NCBI GenBank assembly: GCA_021730205.1
Contig: CP072533.1
Coordinates: forward strand, 649,380 to 713,379
Length of the DNA stretch: 64,000 bases
From: Candidatus Ruthia sp. Cpac_8_S14
Lineage (GTDB): Bacteria; Pseudomonadota; Gammaproteobacteria; PS1; Pseudothioglobaceae
Direction of reading: 5' to 3'
Under the pieces are notes generated by a model, which saw nothing but the letters and a program-made list of their open reading frames with translations, had not been told where the DNA came from and ran no database searches. The position numbers and the translations under genes were made by a program. Position 1 is the first letter of the stretch. Every line of letters starts with the position of its first letter. Shown one piece after another: positions 2,975 through 15,912 of this stretch.

Positions 2975-4792
2975 TTATTTAGGTTTTACGCGCACCCTTT
3001 TGCGTTCATTCTCTGTTAATAAACGCTTGCGAATACGGATATTATGAGGTGTTACTTCTACCAACTCATCATCATCAATAAATTCTAACGCTTGTTCTAA
3101 ATCAAGTTTAATGGCAGGTGTTAGTGATACGGCTTCGTCAGTACCTGATGCACGTACATTGGTCAATTGCTTACCTTTCGTAACATTAATCACTAAATCT
3201 TTATCACGTGTATGAATGCCAACTACCATGCCTTCGTAAATATCGGTGTTGTGTTCTACAAAAAATTTACCACTTTTTTGTAAGTTAAAAATAGCATAAG
3301 CAACTGCTTGCCCTTGGTTCATTGAAATCAAAGAGCCATTAGAACGCTGACCAATTTCCCCCTGTTTTTGAGGTTTATAAGCATCAAAGGTTGAATTCAT
3401 CAGACCTGTGCCTGTCGTTGCTGTTAAAAATTCTGTTCTAAAGCCAATCAAACCACGTGCAGGAATATTAAAGTCCAGCTTTACTCTGCCATTGTCATTT
3501 GGCATCATGTTAGTTAGCTCAGCCTTACGTTCGCCTAACTTTTCCATCACAGTACCTTGATGTTGGCTCTCTACATCAACACTTAAATCTTCAAATGGCT
3601 CGCAAATCATACCATTAATTTCTCTTAAAATGACTTGTGGACGTCCTACTGCCAACTCAAAACCCTCTCTACGCATGGTTTCAATTAAAATTGACAGGTG
3701 CAATTCACCACGACCTGAAACAATAAATTCAGATGGATCGGTTGTGTTTTCAATTCGAAGTGCAACATTGTAAATGAGCTCTTTATCTAAGCGGTCACGA
3801 ATATTTCGTGAGGTGATAAACTTACCATCTTGCCCAGCAAATGGAGAGTCATTCACGCGAAATGCCATAGAAACGGTTGGCTCGTCTACACTCAAAGGCG
3901 GCAACGCTTCAATAGTTCCAGGAACGCAAATTGTATCTGAAATTGAAATACCTTCGATGCCAGTAATGGCGATAATATTGCCTGCTTGTGCACTATCTGT
4001 ATCAATCTTTTCTAAACCAAGAAAACCTTGAAGGTTTGCAATTTTAGCTTTGCGTTCATTGCCTTGTGTGTCAACCACCACAACTTGCATATTTTTCTTA
4101 ATTGTGCCACGTGTAATGCGACCAATAGCAATTGCCCCAATAAATGAGGAATAATCAAGTGCAGTGACTTGCATTTGTAAAGGCGCATCAATATCAACTT
4201 CTGGCGCTTTAACGTGTTTTATAATGGTTTCAAACATGGGTGTCATATCACCTGAACGCACATCATCTTTTAATGAGGCATAGCCATTAATACTTGAAGC
4301 ATAAATAATTGGGAAATCTAATTGTTCGTCAGTTGCACCCAGTTGGTCAAATAAATCAAACATTTGGTCAATTACCCAATCGGGGCGTGCTGCATCTTTG
4401 TCAATTTTATTAATCACTACAATTGGGTTTAAGCCTTGGTCAAAGGCTTTTTTCGTCACAAAGCGTGTTTGTGGCATTGGGCCTTCTTGTGCATCTACAA
4501 GCAAAAGCACACTATCAACCATAGACAGTACACGCTCTACTTCACCACCAAAATCAGCATGGCCTGGCGTGTCTACAATATTGATATGATAATCATGCCA
4601 TTTAATCGCAGTATTTTTACTAGAAATAGTAATGCCACGCTCCTTTTCAAGATCATTTGAATCCATCATTCGATCAGTTGATTCAAAGCGCTCATCAAAC
4701 GTTTGCGATTGCTCAAGTAATTTATCAATCAAAGTTGTCTTACCGTGGTCAACGTGGGCAATAATGGCAATGTTTCTTAGTTTAGTGTTCAT
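2975..4792 (-). CDS. typA: Ribosome-associated translational GTPase BipA/TypA
   Basis: BipA is an EF-G-like GTPase that binds the ribosome and helps 50S assembly and stress adaptation. G1 is AHVDHGKT at about residues 12-19, followed by the switch region [14 protein letters not shown] (G3) and NKID (G4). EF-Tu-like domain II, the EF-G III/V-like domains and the BipA-specific C-terminus follow; the total of 605 residues is normal for the family. I start at the ATG at 4792 because [18 protein letters not shown] matches the usual BipA start; the frame can be extended five codons to a TTG at 4807 but nothing supports that. It is transcribed away from rlmE, with about 70 bases between the two starts. 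Confidence 0.96.
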
Positions 4793-8594: not shown

Positions 8595-10043
8595 TTAAAA
8601 ATACCAAAAAGCCTTATGTAACAAAGCCATTAAGGTTAATATTTCTAGTCGTCCTAATAACATTGAAAAACTTAGAATCCATTTTGCTGTATCGCTAATA
8701 TTGCCATAATTAGCAGCAACATCACCCAAACCTGGACCTAAGTTATTAATAGACGCTGCAGTTGCTGAAAACGCACTCACTTGCTCAAGACCAGTAAACA
8801 TCAACATCAACATAATCATAACAAAGGTGATTATATATAGAGAGAGAAACCCCCAAACTGACACTAAGGTATTCTCAGGAACACTTTTTTGATTAAGCTT
8901 GATGTTGATTTGTGCATTAGGATGAATAAATTTTTTAATCTCTTTCATGGCTAATTTAAACATTAATAATATTCTAACAACTTTAATACCACCACCTGTA
9001 GAGCCAGCACAAGCACCAACAAAACTACCAAAAATTAAAAACACAGGTAGCACGAATGGCCATAATGAGAAATCTGTACTGACAAAGCCTGTAGTAGTCA
9101 TAATGGAAATACTTTGAAATACGCCATGTCTAATCGCCTCTTCGATAGTTTGATAGTAGCCTTTATCAAACAAATAACTTGATAGCAATAAAACTGATGT
9201 ACTTAAAATTAACAAATAGGCTTTAAATTCAGAGTCTTTCAAATAAATAAATATATTGCGTTTGCGCCAAACAAGAAAATGTAGTGAAAAATTAATACCT
9301 GCCAATAGCATAAAGACCATTGCCACTAACTCGATTGCATAAGAATTAAAATAGCCAATTGATGCATCATGAGTAGAAAAACCACCGATAGCAACCGTTG
9401 CATAACTATGTCCAATTGCATCAAATCCATCCATACCCGCAAAGTAGTAACCCAATGCACAAACAACTGTCAAGCTAATATAAATTTTCCATAGTGCTTT
9501 GGCAGTTTGAGCTAACTTTGGCGTGAGTCTTTCTTTAGAAATACCGCTTGATTCTGCGTGGTAAAGCTCCATACCACCAACCCCTAACATGGGTAAGATA
9601 GCAACTGCTAAAACAATAATACCCATGCCACCCAGCCATTGAAGTTGCTGACGATAATACAACAGTGCTTTAGGTAAATCATCTAGCCCAGAAAGTACTG
9701 TTGCACCTGTGGTTGTCAGCCCTGACATGGATTCAAAAAATGCATCACTAAAGGGCATATCCAAAGAAGTTGATAATAAAAATGGCGTGGTCGCAAATAA
9801 GGATAAAACAAACCAAAAACTCACCACTACTAGCACGCCTTCACGAATCCTAAAATCTTTTGTTGATTTTCTAAAAGGCAACCATAAAACAAAACCACTT
9901 AACAATGTTAAAGAAAAAGCGGCGAAAAAAGATGAGGCTTCGTTTTGAGCATAAACAAGGTCAACAACAATGGGTGGTAATTGCGTTAAACTAAATACCA
10001 TTAACAATAAGCCAATGGTTTTAAAAACAATACTAAATTGCAT
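8595..10043 (-). CDS. trkH: Trk potassium uptake channel subunit TrkH
   Basis: TrkH is the membrane pore of the Trk potassium uptake system. The 482-residue protein is hydrophobic throughout with about ten membrane segments arranged as four M1-P-M2 repeats. Selectivity-filter regions are recognisable in GLTTTGATVLSG, ATVAIGGFSTHD, TTTGFVSTDFS and INNLGPGLGDVA, and the loop GACAGSTGGGIKV is typical of the TrkH/KtrB superfamily. It follows trkA after 12 bases, so both channel parts are probably made from one message together with ntrYX. The start at 10043 gives a standard N-terminus. Confidence 0.95.
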   Translation of the reverse strand: MQFSIVFKTIGLLLMVFSLTQLPPIVVDLVYAQNEASSFFAAFSLTLLSGFVLWLPFRKSTKDFRIREGVLVVVSFWFVLSLFATTPFLLSTSLDMPFSDAFFESMSGLTTTGATVLSGLDDLPKALLYYRQQLQWLGGMGIIVLAVAILPMLGVGGMELYHAESSGISKERLTPKLAQTAKALWKIYISLTVVCALGYYFAGMDGFDAIGHSYATVAIGGFSTHDASIGYFNSYAIELVAMVFMLLAGINFSLHFLVWRKRNIFIYLKDSEFKAYLLILSTSVLLLSSYLFDKGYYQTIEEAIRHGVFQSISIMTTTGFVSTDFSLWPFVLPVFLIFGSFVGACAGSTGGGIKVVRILLMFKLAMKEIKKFIHPNAQINIKLNQKSVPENTLVSVWGFLSLYIITFVMIMLMLMFTGLEQVSAFSATAASINNLGPGLGDVAANYGNISDTAKWILSFSMLLGRLEILTLMALLHKAFWYF

Positions 10044-10055
10044 TCTTAATAATCA

Positions 10056-11429
10056 TTAATCAAAATACCCTTCAAACAACTCTTCCACTTCATGAATTTT
10101 ACTCACATCAGTTAATACCAACAACACATGATCTCCTTCCTTGATAACTAAAGTGCGCGACCCCATAATAACCTCATGATTTCTAACAACTGAACCTACG
10201 ACCACACCATCTGGTAAATTGATTTGCTCAATGGTTTTACCCACAACATCTGAATGATGTTTATCACCATGCACAATAACCTCAATTGCCTCTGACTTGC
10301 CTTGGCGCAATGAGTACACCATCATAGTGTCACCCTTGCGAATATGTGCTAAAATTCCACTCACTGTAATTTGGTCGGGCGATATGACCATATCCACATC
10401 TTCACTTTGCTTGGCTAAATCTTCATAGACATTGCGCTTAACCAAAGCAATTGTTTTATGTGCGCCTAAGCGTTTGGCTAAGATTGAAACGATAACATTA
10501 ATTTCATCAGAGTCCGTTAGGGCTAAAAATAAATCTGTACTTTCAATACCCTCTTCTAACAATAATTCCTCGTCAGAGGCATTGCCTAAAAGTACTAATG
10601 TATTATTAAGCTCATCAGCAATTTTACTAACACGCTCTTTACTCATCTCAACAATACGAACATGATGATCCTTTTCTAAGAACTTTGCCAAATTAAGACC
10701 AATACGTCCACCGCCCGCAATAATAATATTTCTATAAGGTTTATCTTCACGCCTGAATTGCTTTATCACTCTAGAAATACTGGCCTTTTTGGTCATGAAA
10801 TAAACTCGATCGCCATCACGAATGACTGTTTCTCCTGATGCAGGAATGGCCTTACCATTGCGATACAAACTAACAATGCGCACCCGTGTCTTTGGCAAAT
10901 GTTCATGTAAATCTTTAATAGGATGCCCTACAATTGGTGTGCCTGCATAAGCTCTAGTTTCTACCAATTGAACCAGCCCATTTTCAAATTCAAACACCTG
11001 CTCAGCGCCTGGCTCTTCAACCACACGCTTAATATAATTAGTCACCAATTCTTCAGGTGTAATAATAAAATCAATTGGAATGGCATTAGGTGAAAATAAC
11101 TCCTTTCTATGCAAGTACTCAGCGGTGCGTATACGCGCTACTTTTTTCTCTACTTGATACAAAGTGTGTGCCATCTGGCAAGCCAACATATTGCCTTCAT
11201 CTGACCGCGTTACCGCAATGATCATATCCATGTTCTTAATATCTGCCTCCTCTAGAACATTAGGATATGAAGCATGACCACACACGGTTTTAACATCTAA
11301 ATGACGTTGTAAGTTTGATAAATTAGACTCATCTTTATCAATAATGGTAATATCATTATCATTATCTGAGCCTAAATATTTGGCTAATGTTGCACCAACT
11401 TGTCCTCCACCTAAAATTAAGATTTTCAT
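10056..11429 (-). CDS. trkA: Trk system NAD-binding regulatory subunit TrkA
   Basis: TrkA is the cytoplasmic RCK ring that gates TrkH in response to nucleotides. It is a tandem protein: an RCK_N Rossmann domain starting ILGGGQVGATLAKYLG, an RCK_C domain, then a second RCK_N starting IIAGGGRIGLNLAKFL (about residue 230) and a second RCK_C. The total of 457 residues equals E. coli TrkA (458). It lies between the ntrX-like gene, six bases upstream, and trkH, 12 bases downstream, on the same strand. Confidence 0.96.
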   Translation of the reverse strand: MKILILGGGQVGATLAKYLGSDNDNDITIIDKDESNLSNLQRHLDVKTVCGHASYPNVLEEADIKNMDMIIAVTRSDEGNMLACQMAHTLYQVEKKVARIRTAEYLHRKELFSPNAIPIDFIITPEELVTNYIKRVVEEPGAEQVFEFENGLVQLVETRAYAGTPIVGHPIKDLHEHLPKTRVRIVSLYRNGKAIPASGETVIRDGDRVYFMTKKASISRVIKQFRREDKPYRNIIIAGGGRIGLNLAKFLEKDHHVRIVEMSKERVSKIADELNNTLVLLGNASDEELLLEEGIESTDLFLALTDSDEINVIVSILAKRLGAHKTIALVKRNVYEDLAKQSEDVDMVISPDQITVSGILAHIRKGDTMMVYSLRQGKSEAIEVIVHGDKHHSDVVGKTIEQINLPDGVVVGSVVRNHEVIMGSRTLVIKEGDHVLLVLTDVSKIHEVEELFEGYFD

Positions 11430-11435
11430 ACTATT

Positions 11436-12011
11436 TTATTTTTTATCAATACCTAAATCTTTTAACTTACGATATAAAGTGGTTCTTTCTAATCCTGCAA
11501 GTGTTGCAACTTTGGCAATATTATGATTGTTCTCTTGTAAGTGGTGATTGAAATATTGTACCTCAAAAATATTTCTCGCTTCTTTAAGTGGTGCATTAAA
11601 TTCAATACCACTAATAGTATGTTCAGATTTCTCTAGTACTTGTTCAGATAGAATCTTACGCACCAATGGCAAAATATCATGCAGTGGTTTTTTCAAAAAA
11701 TCAACCGCGCCTAGTTTAATTGCCCTGACCACATCTTGATGTTCTGCATGACCAGACATCATTACAATCGGTGTAGAAAAACCAGCCTGAGTCCATTCTT
11801 CTAACAACGACATACCATCCTGTCCAGGCATCCAAACATCCATCATAACCAAGTCAAAAATTTGATCTTTTATAATGGTTTTGGCTTGGTTGGCATTAAC
11901 CGCAAGAACCACATAGTAATTAACATCTTCCAGTGTATCCATCATCGTTTCTGCATTAATATTTTCATCATCAATAATAAGAATTCTACCAATGGCTAGT
12001 GTGTCATCCAT
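11436..12011 (-). CDS. ntrX: NtrX-like response regulator lacking the sigma-54 AAA+ domain
   Basis: The protein has a receiver domain (acidic pair D14-D15, phospho-acceptor D58 in MMDVWMPGQDG, Ser in VMMSGH, Lys in FLKKPL) and then, after a linker of about 40 residues, a Fis-type helix-turn-helix ending NIAKVATLAGLERTTLYRKL. Both ends resemble NtrX, and the partner kinase NtrY is directly upstream. NtrX is normally about 450 residues with a central sigma-54-activating ATPase (GAFTGA loop); here that whole domain is missing and the protein is 191 residues. The frame is intact, so it may still bind DNA as a phosphorylation-dependent regulator but cannot remodel sigma-54 polymerase. RegA/PrrA proteins share the REC-Fis layout but have different signature sequences and context. 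Confidence 0.85.
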   Translation of the reverse strand: MDDTLAIGRILIIDDENINAETMMDTLEDVNYYVVLAVNANQAKTIIKDQIFDLVMMDVWMPGQDGMSLLEEWTQAGFSTPIVMMSGHAEHQDVVRAIKLGAVDFLKKPLHDILPLVRKILSEQVLEKSEHTISGIEFNAPLKEARNIFEVQYFNHHLQENNHNIAKVATLAGLERTTLYRKLKDLGIDKK

Positions 12012-12023
12012 AATCCTTTCCTT

Positions 12024-14186
12024 TTATTTATTACAATTAAACTCAATGGTAATCATAGCGCCATGCGGCTTAACATTGCTAGCAAATATTTCACCCTCAT
12101 GCTGCTTAATAATATTTTGCACAATCGCCATCCCTAAACCACTACCCTTAATTTTAGTCGTTACATAAGGCTCAAACACTCTATCAAGTACATACTTGTC
12201 AAAACCATCGCCATCATCTGTGATACTTAAACGCGCAATGGCTTGTTTTGGTAAATATTCTGTTGTGATTTTAACGTTTAAATCACGCCCGTCAATCATT
12301 GCTTCACTGGCATTTTTCACTAAATTAATCAACACTCTAGAAATACTATGGCTATCTAAAAGTAGCAGTGGAATACCAGCAGACAAATCAAAATCAATAC
12401 TCATATTGCTTATGTCGTCATAAAGTGCGATAGATTGCTTAATTAACGCGTTCAAATTACAAGGCTTCCTTTCAATTTGAGGTGTATTAGCATAGTCAGA
12501 AAATGCGCTCACCATGGTGTCCATGGATTGAACTTGGTGAATGATGGTATTTGTAGTTTTATCAATAACCTCTAAATCTTTGCCCTCTAAAGAACCCATA
12601 AATCGATTTCTAAGACGCTGAGCAGATAATAAAATGGGCGTTAGTGGATTTTTAATTTCGTGTGCCATGCGCTTTGCCACTTCCCCCCAAGCAGCTTTCT
12701 TCTGAGCCCTGTTTAATTTCGAGATGTCCTTAATCACAATGACAAAACCCAAGGTTTCATTGTCATTTTTAAGTGCCGCACCTTGGCACGATAATAACAA
12801 ATGTTGACTAGCCAAAGTAATTTCAATCTCTTCACTCCATTCGCTTTTATCTCGTTTAAATTTATCTTGTGTCATTAAAAACAGAGGTTCTAAATTTGAA
12901 TAGCGATTAACAATAGTGTTACATTTTTTACCAATGAATAGTTTTTCATCTTTAATGCCTAACATTGTACCAATCACTGGATTAATGAGACGTATCTTCC
13001 TATTTTGATCAAGCGCAATCACGCCATAAGAATATTTAAGAATCGTTTCCAAATACAAATTGTGCGTATCTAAACCCTCACGAGATGCCTTGATTTGTCT
13101 AGACATAGTATTAAATTGCTCAATCAAACTACGCACATCTTCACTTTCTTTTTGTTTAGCAATACGTACATCATAATTACCTTTGGCAATTTCTTGCGTG
13201 GCGATGGATAAATTATTCAGTGGTTTCATTAGCCGTTCAATCATACGAAAAACCACCATAAGTACACTAAGTATTGCTAGTAACACAGTGGATGAAAAAT
13301 CAATCATAAAACGTTTTTGAGTGATTGAAGTATTAATTTCGAATTTAATGTTTTGCGCTGCACTAGCAAATCCTCTAACTTGTGACAAAAACCCTAAAAG
13401 CCCTGGATCAGTTGCATACACCACATCAACCACAAACAAATCTTGATTTGATATGCTTGAAAGATAACGCGTTGACATTTTTACTTGAATAACATTTGCA
13501 GTCTCATCTTCGTTAATCGTACGCGGCTGTGTATCTGGCAATGGCTGCTCTTCAATCGCCATACAATTAGTCACATCTGCTGTTTTAGCAACCACCTCTT
13601 CTTGAGCATTTAACAATGTAATTTGACAAGCCCAGCCTTTATCAATTAAGCCATCAAGAAATATCTGCATACTTTGTGCATAATTTTTAGCATCTTTTTG
13701 GAAACTACCAAAGGAAGTAATTAAAGTTAGCAATCTTTTTGTTTGTTCAGTATAACGCTCATCTCTGATTTTTTGCACACCACTATATAAACCATTAACT
13801 TGCTGAATAAAGTTTTGACTAAAAATATTAAACGCTTTTTCTGAATCTTTAACGTTGTTTTGAATCGTCTGGAATGAAAATATATAAAAGGACAATACAG
13901 GTACAATCACCAAAACCGGCACAATTTTAACAAAAGACCAAGTAAATTTAGAGCCTACAATATCGCCTTTAACATCACGCTTAAGGCGTAATACATCCGC
14001 ATAAATATAATAAATAGCAACCAAACTCATGATGATATTAAACCCAACTAAATACCCCCACCAGTGTGCAATAAAATCAGGGTTAAGCCCTAAATAAAAC
14101 GTGCCAGAAATAGACAGTAAAAAAACAAACACCCAAACCCATGCAGGTGGTGTCTTTTTTAAACTTAAATATTGACTAAAAATCAT
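12024..14186 (-). CDS. ntrY: NtrY-type sensor histidine kinase
   Basis: This membrane kinase of 720 residues is paired with the NtrX-like regulator 12 bases downstream. Three or four N-terminal membrane helices surround a periplasmic sensor segment; then come a HAMP linker, a PAS domain (about 375-490), a HisKA domain with phospho-acceptor His at about 509 in MAHEIKNPLTP, and a HATPase_c domain with the N box NLVKNASEAM and the G boxes DDGDGF and GSGLGMAIV. All catalytic motifs are intact. In other bacteria NtrYX responds to nitrogen or redox state; coupling to trkAH in one operon is a known gammaproteobacterial arrangement. Confidence 0.92.
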   Translation of the reverse strand: MIFSQYLSLKKTPPAWVWVFVFLLSISGTFYLGLNPDFIAHWWGYLVGFNIIMSLVAIYYIYADVLRLKRDVKGDIVGSKFTWSFVKIVPVLVIVPVLSFYIFSFQTIQNNVKDSEKAFNIFSQNFIQQVNGLYSGVQKIRDERYTEQTKRLLTLITSFGSFQKDAKNYAQSMQIFLDGLIDKGWACQITLLNAQEEVVAKTADVTNCMAIEEQPLPDTQPRTINEDETANVIQVKMSTRYLSSISNQDLFVVDVVYATDPGLLGFLSQVRGFASAAQNIKFEINTSITQKRFMIDFSSTVLLAILSVLMVVFRMIERLMKPLNNLSIATQEIAKGNYDVRIAKQKESEDVRSLIEQFNTMSRQIKASREGLDTHNLYLETILKYSYGVIALDQNRKIRLINPVIGTMLGIKDEKLFIGKKCNTIVNRYSNLEPLFLMTQDKFKRDKSEWSEEIEITLASQHLLLSCQGAALKNDNETLGFVIVIKDISKLNRAQKKAAWGEVAKRMAHEIKNPLTPILLSAQRLRNRFMGSLEGKDLEVIDKTTNTIIHQVQSMDTMVSAFSDYANTPQIERKPCNLNALIKQSIALYDDISNMSIDFDLSAGIPLLLLDSHSISRVLINLVKNASEAMIDGRDLNVKITTEYLPKQAIARLSITDDGDGFDKYVLDRVFEPYVTTKIKGSGLGMAIVQNIIKQHEGEIFASNVKPHGAMITIEFNCNK

Positions 14187-14250
14187 AGAAAGTAATACAG
14201 ATGATCATAATTTTTTAAGCAATTATCACATAAAAAAATAAATATCTGTA

Positions 14251-14275
14251 CAAGTTGTTCATTAAATACAACTTG
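14251..14275. repeat. Small inverted repeat upstream of the decayed exported-protein gene
   Basis: Eight-base arms CAAGTTGT and ACAACTTG are separated by nine AT-rich bases. The repeat lies in the divergent region between ntrY and the pseudogene that starts at 14337. It could be an operator for either side, but no regulator can be assigned. Confidence 0.35.
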
Positions 14276-14336
14276 AATAACTTGGTCTATCATTTAAGGT
14301 AGAGAAAAAATACTTTCAAATAATAAGGAGCACCCA

Positions 14337-15090
14337 ATGTCACAAAATCTAGCAACAAGCACGTTCAAAAATATCCCCAAGCTCTTTAGTTTCTAAATCG
14401 CTTTCTAAGTACCCCGAGTTTCTCTAACCTCTAAATCCTTTAAATCCAGTTTCTTTGTACTTGCTCTTTTTAGTCTTTTATTCTCCATTGACGCACAAGC
14501 CACTGATACTTTCGATAAATCCACTTACCTAGATCTAAACACTGAGTACAATCAAACCGTTGTTAACAAAAAAAACCACCTTACTCAAAGAAGAGAGCAG
14601 CACACTACGCAACGCCCTAGGCTCTACAAACTCGGACAATGTTGGTGAAAACCAAGGCAATCGCTAATAATACCGAAGAAGTCTTAGCAGATTATGATAC
14701 CCAACTGTCTGGACAAGCCCCTTATCTATCTTGGGTAACATATTAAAGGCAGCCATTACTTCTGGGACGCTAAAGTTAGCAACCAATCAGTTTTTGATTT
14801 GGACAAGAAGACAACAACACAAGCAGTAAAAGCTATGGCAACGAGTAACTCACCAATTTTTCCATTGATGATAAGCTTTTTAAAGCCAGTAGTAAAATGA
14901 ACTTAAGCGAATTTGGGTAGAACACTCTAACAAAATTCGCACCGAAAGGTTGATGGTAGTGGCAATGTGGTTGATGGTGGTCGCAGGTGGTATTACCTAT
15001 TACCTAGAGTATTGTCACCATTAGCAGCCAAAACCTAGACTGCTGAAAATATGAAACATGCAGTTACTACTGGCAATGCTTAGAGTTAGG
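14337..15090 (+). pseudogene. Decayed gene for an exported protein of unknown family
   Basis: A good ribosome binding site (AAGGAG) precedes ATG 14337, but the frame stops after 19 codons. Continuing in shifted frames gives a typical signal peptide (FFVLALFSLLFSIDAQA, about 14455-14510), then readable pieces such as TYLDLNTEYNQTVVN, TTLLKEESSTLRNALGS, NTEEVLADYDTQLSGQ, FWDAKVSNQSVFDLDKK and LTNFSIDDKLFKASSKMNL. Each is in a different frame from its neighbour, separated by stops. At least one shift falls in an A8 run near 14565. The pieces read as one secreted or outer-membrane protein of roughly 230 residues. I do not recognise the family. A terminator directly follows, so the old transcription unit is still outlined. 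Confidence 0.75.
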
Positions 15091-15091
15091 C

Positions 15092-15122
15092 ATGACTCAG
15101 CGAAGCTGGGTCATCTTTTTTT
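15092..15122 (+). terminator. Rho-independent terminator
   Basis: The ten-base arms ATGACTCAGC and GCTGGGTCAT (one G-T pair) enclose the loop GAA, and a run of seven T follows from 15116. It sits just after the decayed exported-protein gene and reads on the plus strand. Confidence 0.85.
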
Positions 15123-15399
15123 ATAAATTTAATAGGAGGTTATTTAATTAAAGAATATTTTATTATCACAATCTTAATGAGACATAAGATAGTTGCCCAG
15201 CGTTGTTTAATTTAAGGATTAAGCAAGAGAGGCTTTTTAAATCCAAACATCCTCTAAATACCATTTGAGATAAGTATTTACGCAGTTGTGACCCCATGCT
15301 AAATTTCAAAGTCTTTGTAATATTGGAAAGATCCTTATGTCTTGAATGTAGTTAAAAAATTTATACTCTTAAGACTAATCATATAAAACCAATTTATAA

Positions 15400-15912
15400 T
15401 TTGGTGAATGAATGGTCTTATCGGTATAAAATACAACAAATGATTCAAATACAACTAAGTCAATTTTTATTTTATAGCCCTAACATCAAAAAACGCATGG
15501 AAAAACGTCAAAGGATTTTCTCGTTTAGCCAAAAAAAACACATCGTCTTGCCGCGCAATTAGCCATGTTTAGAGAGTACCAGGCTTATTCATAAGAACAA
15601 ACCTAGAAAATGGATAATGAGTGATGATAAATTAATCAATTATACGCTCAAAAAAAGCCATTGCCTTTTGACATAAGAACTACATTTAATGAATTTTTAG
15701 TCAGCAATGAACAGCTGGATGGGGCTGAAATTATTGTTAATAAGCAGCACACACTACCAACAAAAACTGAAAAAGCAAAGAAAAATGAATTACAAAAACT
15801 GGTACAAAATATAGCAAGTCAGTATAGTCTAGATGATAAAATCATTACCAGTGGTAAATCATTATTGAGTTTTATTCGTGGTGACCGCTCAGTTATTTTT
15901 TTAACAAGTTAG
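15400..15912 (+). pseudogene. rnd: Ribonuclease D remnant (C-terminal half)
   Basis: Pieces in several frames line up in the order expected for RNase D after its exonuclease domain: AWKNVKGFSRLAKK (from 15495), LAAQLAMFREYQAYS, NKPRKWIMSDDKLINYTLKK, and then an open stretch of 83 codons from 15661 (PFDIRTTFNEFLVSNEQL to the stop at 15912) corresponding to the second HRDC domain. Frameshifts lie near the A8 run at about 15533 and near 15655. The N-terminal DEDD nuclease domain is not recognisable upstream, although 15180-15400 may hold even more worn parts of it. RNase D trims tRNA 3' ends and is dispensable in E. coli, so loss is plausible. ppa follows 32 bases on. Confidence 0.72.

Follow-up and report, generated by a model that had tools for sequence, protein, structure and literature searches.

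A family-wide form of the response regulator NtrX without the AAA+ domain in Thioglobaceae

The ntrY-ntrX-trkA-trkH locus

The window, which means the whole 64-kb stretch of DNA that was analyzed, belongs to a clam-symbiont genome of one contig (1.18 Mb) and holds a conserved cluster of ntrY, ntrX, trkA, and trkH (Table 1). The nearest named relatives place this genome with Ruthia, Ruthturnera, and Vesicomyosocius, the symbionts of vesicomyid clams. The ntrX reading frame starts with ATG, contains no internal stops, and encodes 191 amino acids, in which Pfam recognizes a receiver domain (Response_reg, residues 10-111, 8.1e-25) and a Fis-type helix-turn-helix (HTH_8, residues 155-185, 5.5e-7) with no match, to AAA+ or any other family, between them. 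The adjoining NtrY is intact, and its HisKA phospho-acceptor motif reads HEIKN. The predicted model of the short NtrX (mean pLDDT 83) likewise consists of two ordered domains, joined by a linker of low confidence. The AAA+ domain with a GAFTGA loop by which sigma-54 enhancer-binding proteins are recognized is absent from the protein.

Table 1 Positions of the genes and other features of the ntrYX-trkAH region in the window
Feature	Position	Strand	Description
trkH	8595..10043	(-)	last gene of the conserved cluster
trkA	10056..11429	(-)	six bases downstream of ntrX; ancestral neighbor
short ntrX	11436..12011	(-)	receiver aa 8-120, linker about 18 aa, Fis-type HTH aa 139-188
ntrY	12024..14186	(-)	sensor histidine kinase (TM, HAMP, PAS, HisKA, HATPase_c); upstream partner
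extended -10-like element, TGTGATAAT	14222..14230	(-)	upstream of ntrY; sequence conservation only
decayed stretch	14231-15912		between ntrY and the next genes
rnd remnant	15661-15912	(+)	C-terminal part of ribonuclease D, 46% identity to rnd of locus L024

Judging from its locus, receiver, and HTH, the product is NtrX, which bears out the identification made in the first-pass annotation, just as the reading frame and the Pfam searches confirm its description of a 191-residue receiver-plus-Fis protein without AAA+ beside an intact kinase. Receiver residues D15, D58, S86, and K108 are invariant among 18 aligned family members, and the NtrX family NF051870 is the best NCBIfam match of all 18. 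The score of the protein from the window, 106 bits over the receiver only, lies below the cut-off of 600 bits, which is also missed by full-length gammaproteobacterial NtrX. Brucella NtrX (5m7n) is the best PDB sequence match and is also among the matches in a fold comparison made with the receiver part only. The dN/dS check that had been proposed for the remaining domains gave 0.05-0.14 for the whole gene and 0.00-0.09 for the HTH against close symbionts, that is, purifying selection in both the receiver and the HTH, the latter being the most constrained part, and a loose linker. Because of these low values, and because the protein is kept throughout the family, the short gene is not regarded as noise.

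Nearly all members of the family have an extended -10-like element facing ntrY, and its counterpart in the window, TGTGATAAT, is a candidate sigma-70 promoter for ntrY. Upstream of this element, a dyad, TTGTTG-N8-CAACAA, is found family-wide in the rnd-ntrY intergenic region, for example at about 3735-3822 of locus L008. Genomes have about one such site each, further sites being near the control level, and the dyad decays or is lost in clam symbionts without rnd. We do not claim it as an NtrX operator; it may instead belong with rnd, a gene that other members of the family retain intact and in divergent orientation to ntrY.

Origin of the short form

Thioglobaceae, as the name is used here, comprises SUP05, Thioglobus, and the thiotrophic symbionts of mussels and clams, and is the sole family of its order among the genomes searched. 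A scan that returned 61 loci, from clam symbionts, mussel symbionts, and free-living SUP05/Thioglobus, showed that nearly all of them encode a complete short NtrX, 184-197 residues long, and that the gene order is ntrY-ntrX-trkA-trkH wherever the contig extends far enough. A search of 83 Thioglobaceae genomes with A1, a profile built from the short NtrX, detected this form in 77, including all 49 genomes that are at least 90% complete and all 11 genera, free-living SUP05 among them; all matches except one partial match lie in frames of about 190-230 codons and span no fewer than 185 of the 191 positions. The short NtrX is, therefore, an old, family-wide form and not a product of symbiont decay.

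In other Gammaproteobacteria, the ntrY-ntrX-trkA locus encodes an NtrX of 450-460 (about 455) amino acids, with ntrY upstream and trkA downstream in most of the full-length loci inspected. Identity between the short and full-length proteins is roughly 35-50% in the receiver and 40-63% in the HTH, and in the joint alignment the long proteins have 260-264 additional residues opposite residue 128 of the 191-residue protein. Because the locus is shared and both ends of the short protein match full-length NtrX, a receiver-Fis gene ancestral in the class is unlikely. The in-frame deletion of about 260 residues that had been proposed is, on this alignment, well supported as an in-place loss of the AAA+ domain at the base of Thioglobaceae, and loss before the radiation of the family is the simplest account. 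The proposal that the operon retains a special link to potassium is not supported because ntrY-ntrX-trkA is the general, ancestral gammaproteobacterial arrangement (PMC13001219); in Bordetella, trkAH is not needed for persistence (PMC13001219).

What was lost was probably not the machinery of a sigma-54 activator. The sigma-54-contacting loop motif GAFTGA is present in none of 62 distinct long NtrX proteins of Gammaproteobacteria and in none of the 16 long Burkholderiales NtrX inspected, and Caulobacter NtrX has likewise been reported to lack it (PMC10274813); the motif does occur elsewhere in Thioglobaceae, namely in 12 of 18 loci of other activators, among them those near rpoN. Because the long gammaproteobacterial proteins lack GAFTGA, the ancestral NtrX of the class was probably already independent of sigma-54, so that the deletion is unlikely to have converted an enhancer-binding activator, as the first-pass annotation had it; sigma-54 activation had probably gone first. 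The long proteins of Gammaproteobacteria mostly have a P-loop-like motif (47 of 62), which is missing from all 16 of those from Burkholderiales. These differing counts, together with a 302-residue NtrX whose middle is partly deleted (L284, genome G494), indicate that decay of the AAA+ domain is graded.

NtrX proteins without AAA+ are already known from betaproteobacteria, e.g., PlrR of Bordetella (PMC13001219), and we encountered them in the order of genome G279, which was taken as Burkholderiales from its plrP-NtrY-short-NtrX locus. About 30 of the 150 genomes of that order, from ten families, match the short form along the full query, most of the remaining genomes match in frames of more than 410 codons, and the short proteins are nested among long ones. 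L284 comes from this order, as does a 193-residue NtrX with a short linker (L283, genome G475). The existence of these proteins raises the possibility that Thioglobaceae received a short gene by horizontal transfer from a betaproteobacterium whose NtrX was of the PlrR type, rather than losing the domain in place. When two Burkholderiales short forms were the only ones included, a single origin was indeed not rejected (p 0.33 and 0.90, for separate trees of receiver plus HTH or of NtrY). These smaller data sets were superseded by a joint tree built from receiver, HTH, and NtrY, in which Burkholderiales is represented by 14 short and 16 long rows. Thioglobaceae fall there with the other gammaproteobacteria, apart from Burkholderiales, and an AU test rejects a single clade of the short forms of both groups (p-AU 0.0009). 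The short/long state changes six times on this tree, where Thioglobaceae sit on a very long branch (2.43 changes per column). The two short forms also differ in the linker, which is about 20 residues in Thioglobaceae versus 50-90 residues, often rich in Ala/Pro, in Burkholderiales, and in the recognition helix, which reads ERTTLYRK in 65 of 66 Thioglobaceae proteins and mostly ERTHLYRK elsewhere, suggesting a shift in DNA preference in the former. Moreover, plrP (DUF4390) gave no match in the three Thioglobaceae genomes searched for it (G000, G040, and G044), and the gene upstream of ntrY in the examined loci of the family is rnd or its remnant, not rsmB or plrP. We therefore consider horizontal acquisition improbable. 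Given the outcome with the smaller data sets and the length of the branch, a separate origin of the Thioglobaceae form is likely, not certain.

Distribution of rpoN and the absence of the AAA+ domain

The first-pass annotation proposed that an in-frame deletion, perhaps after the loss of rpoN, turned an enhancer-binding activator into a simple regulator, which would amount to a lineage-specific event in a reduced symbiont. The genome does fit such a scenario: it has no match to Sigma54_DBD in its 1.18 Mb, its three matches to the activator domain PF00158 are all weak (21-32 bits), and its NtrX has no AAA+. In the 64-kb window, three one-mismatch sites for the sigma-54 promoter consensus were counted versus 1.8 expected. 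A recent or symbiont-specific deletion is, however, refuted because free-living relatives and all 11 Thioglobaceae genomes with clear rpoN (G043, G044, G049-G052, G054, G058, G060, G063, and G066) share the short architecture, the very finding that the annotation had named as its refutation; together with the want of GAFTGA in the full-length proteins of the class and the coexistence of rpoN and short NtrX in Burkholderiales, this leaves the lineage-specific account with very little probability.

Across genomes, absence of the AAA+ domain does not follow that of rpoN. Two Burkholderiales genomes (G173 and G279) carry a short NtrX together with rpoN, and G118 has a full-length NtrX with no rpoN found, so that rpoN loss as the cause of AAA+ loss is unsupported. 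Among 46 gammaproteobacteria without an rpoN match, G166 alone gave another receiver-plus-HTH match of the short-NtrX kind. This receiver regulator of 198 residues, whose end is weakly Fis-like, is encoded directly after rpoC and away from ntrY (5017-5613 of L183), in a genome that has plrP.

Sigma-54 factor matches above the curated cut-off were obtained in 12 Thioglobaceae genomes, of which G079 holds only small pieces. The genes examined are of two types. Type A is clustered with a kinase and an activator of its own (G043 and G054), in G043 also with a molybdopterin oxidoreductase, and its product falls outside 28 gammaproteobacterial RpoN proteins in a tree; vertical inheritance of type A is unlikely, given this accessory setting and tree position. 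Type B lies inside NiFe-hydrogenase clusters (G051 and G063). Our inference is that the ancestor of Thioglobaceae had no rpoN and that the gene was re-acquired later. As rpoN was probably absent from that ancestor, its loss possibly contributed to fixation of the short form in the family.

Several other regulators of the family were noted in passing. The type B genes (L178 in G051 and L182 in G063) appear to be operon-private sigma-54 genes in a family mostly without rpoN, and the G051 cluster also holds a GAFTGA activator; the different sigma-54 genes at L179 (G043), the one beside the oxidoreductase, and L181 (G054) adjoin a kinase and a GSFTGA activator. Five Thioglobaceae genomes, none with an rpoN match, encode a second regulator of receiver-AAA+-HTH architecture, without GAFTGA and with its own kinase (L078, L079, and L081-L083). 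No rpoN was found in G015, which is 99% complete; this genome encodes two activators (L069 and L086), whose motifs read GSFSGA and GAFTGA.

Proposed mode of action and comparison with known systems

Taken together, we put at roughly 80% the probability that the gene encodes the NtrX of an NtrYX system that lost its AAA+ domain completely in the common ancestor of Thioglobaceae and now serves as a simple phospho-dependent regulator of sigma-70 promoters. A role as a simple phospho-dependent DNA-binding regulator, which the first-pass annotation had also suggested, is most likely. NtrY would phosphorylate D58, and the phosphorylated receiver would dimerize and present paired Fis-type HTHs to DNA; the protein would activate or repress sigma-70 promoters in the ordinary manner, without hydrolyzing ATP. 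The loss would have been tolerated since the loop that contacts sigma-54 had already disappeared from the AAA+ domain of gammaproteobacterial NtrX. In a broader proposal, to which we give slightly better than even odds, NtrX is independent of sigma-54 throughout beta- and gammaproteobacteria, and its AAA+ domain, dispensable once GAFTGA was lost, has been decaying through loss of the P-loop and partial to full deletion and has been removed independently several times, the order of Thioglobaceae being one fixed end point with a shifted DNA-recognition helix.

Two other views of the protein seem very unlikely. It might be a redox regulator of the RegA/PrrA/ActR type, natively composed of a receiver and a Fis-type HTH and merely located beside NtrY; the gross architecture is alike, and an unnamed 184-residue response regulator (PDB 3rqi) aligns with residues 9-184. 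Its best family match is, however, NtrX in 18 of 18 cases, Brucella NtrX gives the best sequence match in the PDB, and the protein shares with full-length NtrX both the ntrY-ntrX-trkA locus and an HTH that is 40-63% similar. Nor is the short NtrX likely to be a phosphate sink or antagonist for NtrY devoid of transcriptional function, as the HTH is its most constrained part and the recognition helix is nearly invariant.

The default NtrYX regulator can now be named for the SUP05/Thioglobus clade, which is often encountered in oxygen-minimum waters and in vent symbioses; we found no description of its NtrX in the literature searched. The proteins compared here form a natural graded series, from AAA+ without GAFTGA through degenerate AAA+ to none, which shows a sigma-54 activator family turning into plain DNA-binding regulators, and they correct the idea that reduced symbionts drop the AAA+ domain upon losing rpoN.

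The domain set of the short NtrX agrees with that of the RegA/PrrA/ActR redox regulators, which consist of a receiver and a Fis-type HTH in about 180-190 amino acids, and by analogy it probably works like them; those regulators differ in kinase partner (RegB), locus, and best-matching family. The full-length, NF051870-like NtrX of Gammaproteobacteria has the same locus, receiver, and Fis HTH, and differs by the central AAA+ domain of ~260 residues, itself without GAFTGA in all 62 proteins. A precedent for the proposed mode of action is provided by NtrC of Rhodobacter capsulatus and of Caulobacter, which lack GAFTGA, act at sigma-70 promoters, and are uncoupled from sigma-54 (PMC10274813), but they retain an AAA+ domain for which ATP binding matters, in contrast with the short NtrX. 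The closest parallel is PlrR of Bordetella and other betaproteobacteria, in which an NtrX-family receiver is likewise joined to a DNA-binding domain without AAA+ and whose gene likewise lies downstream of that for a HEIKN NtrY-type kinase and upstream of trkA-trkH (PMC13001219); PlrR is set apart by its longer linker, its ERTHLYRK helix, and the plrP gene that precedes its locus. An NtrX without AAA+ is thus already known in Bordetella and its kin, and the Thioglobaceae protein is a further case, probably of separate origin.
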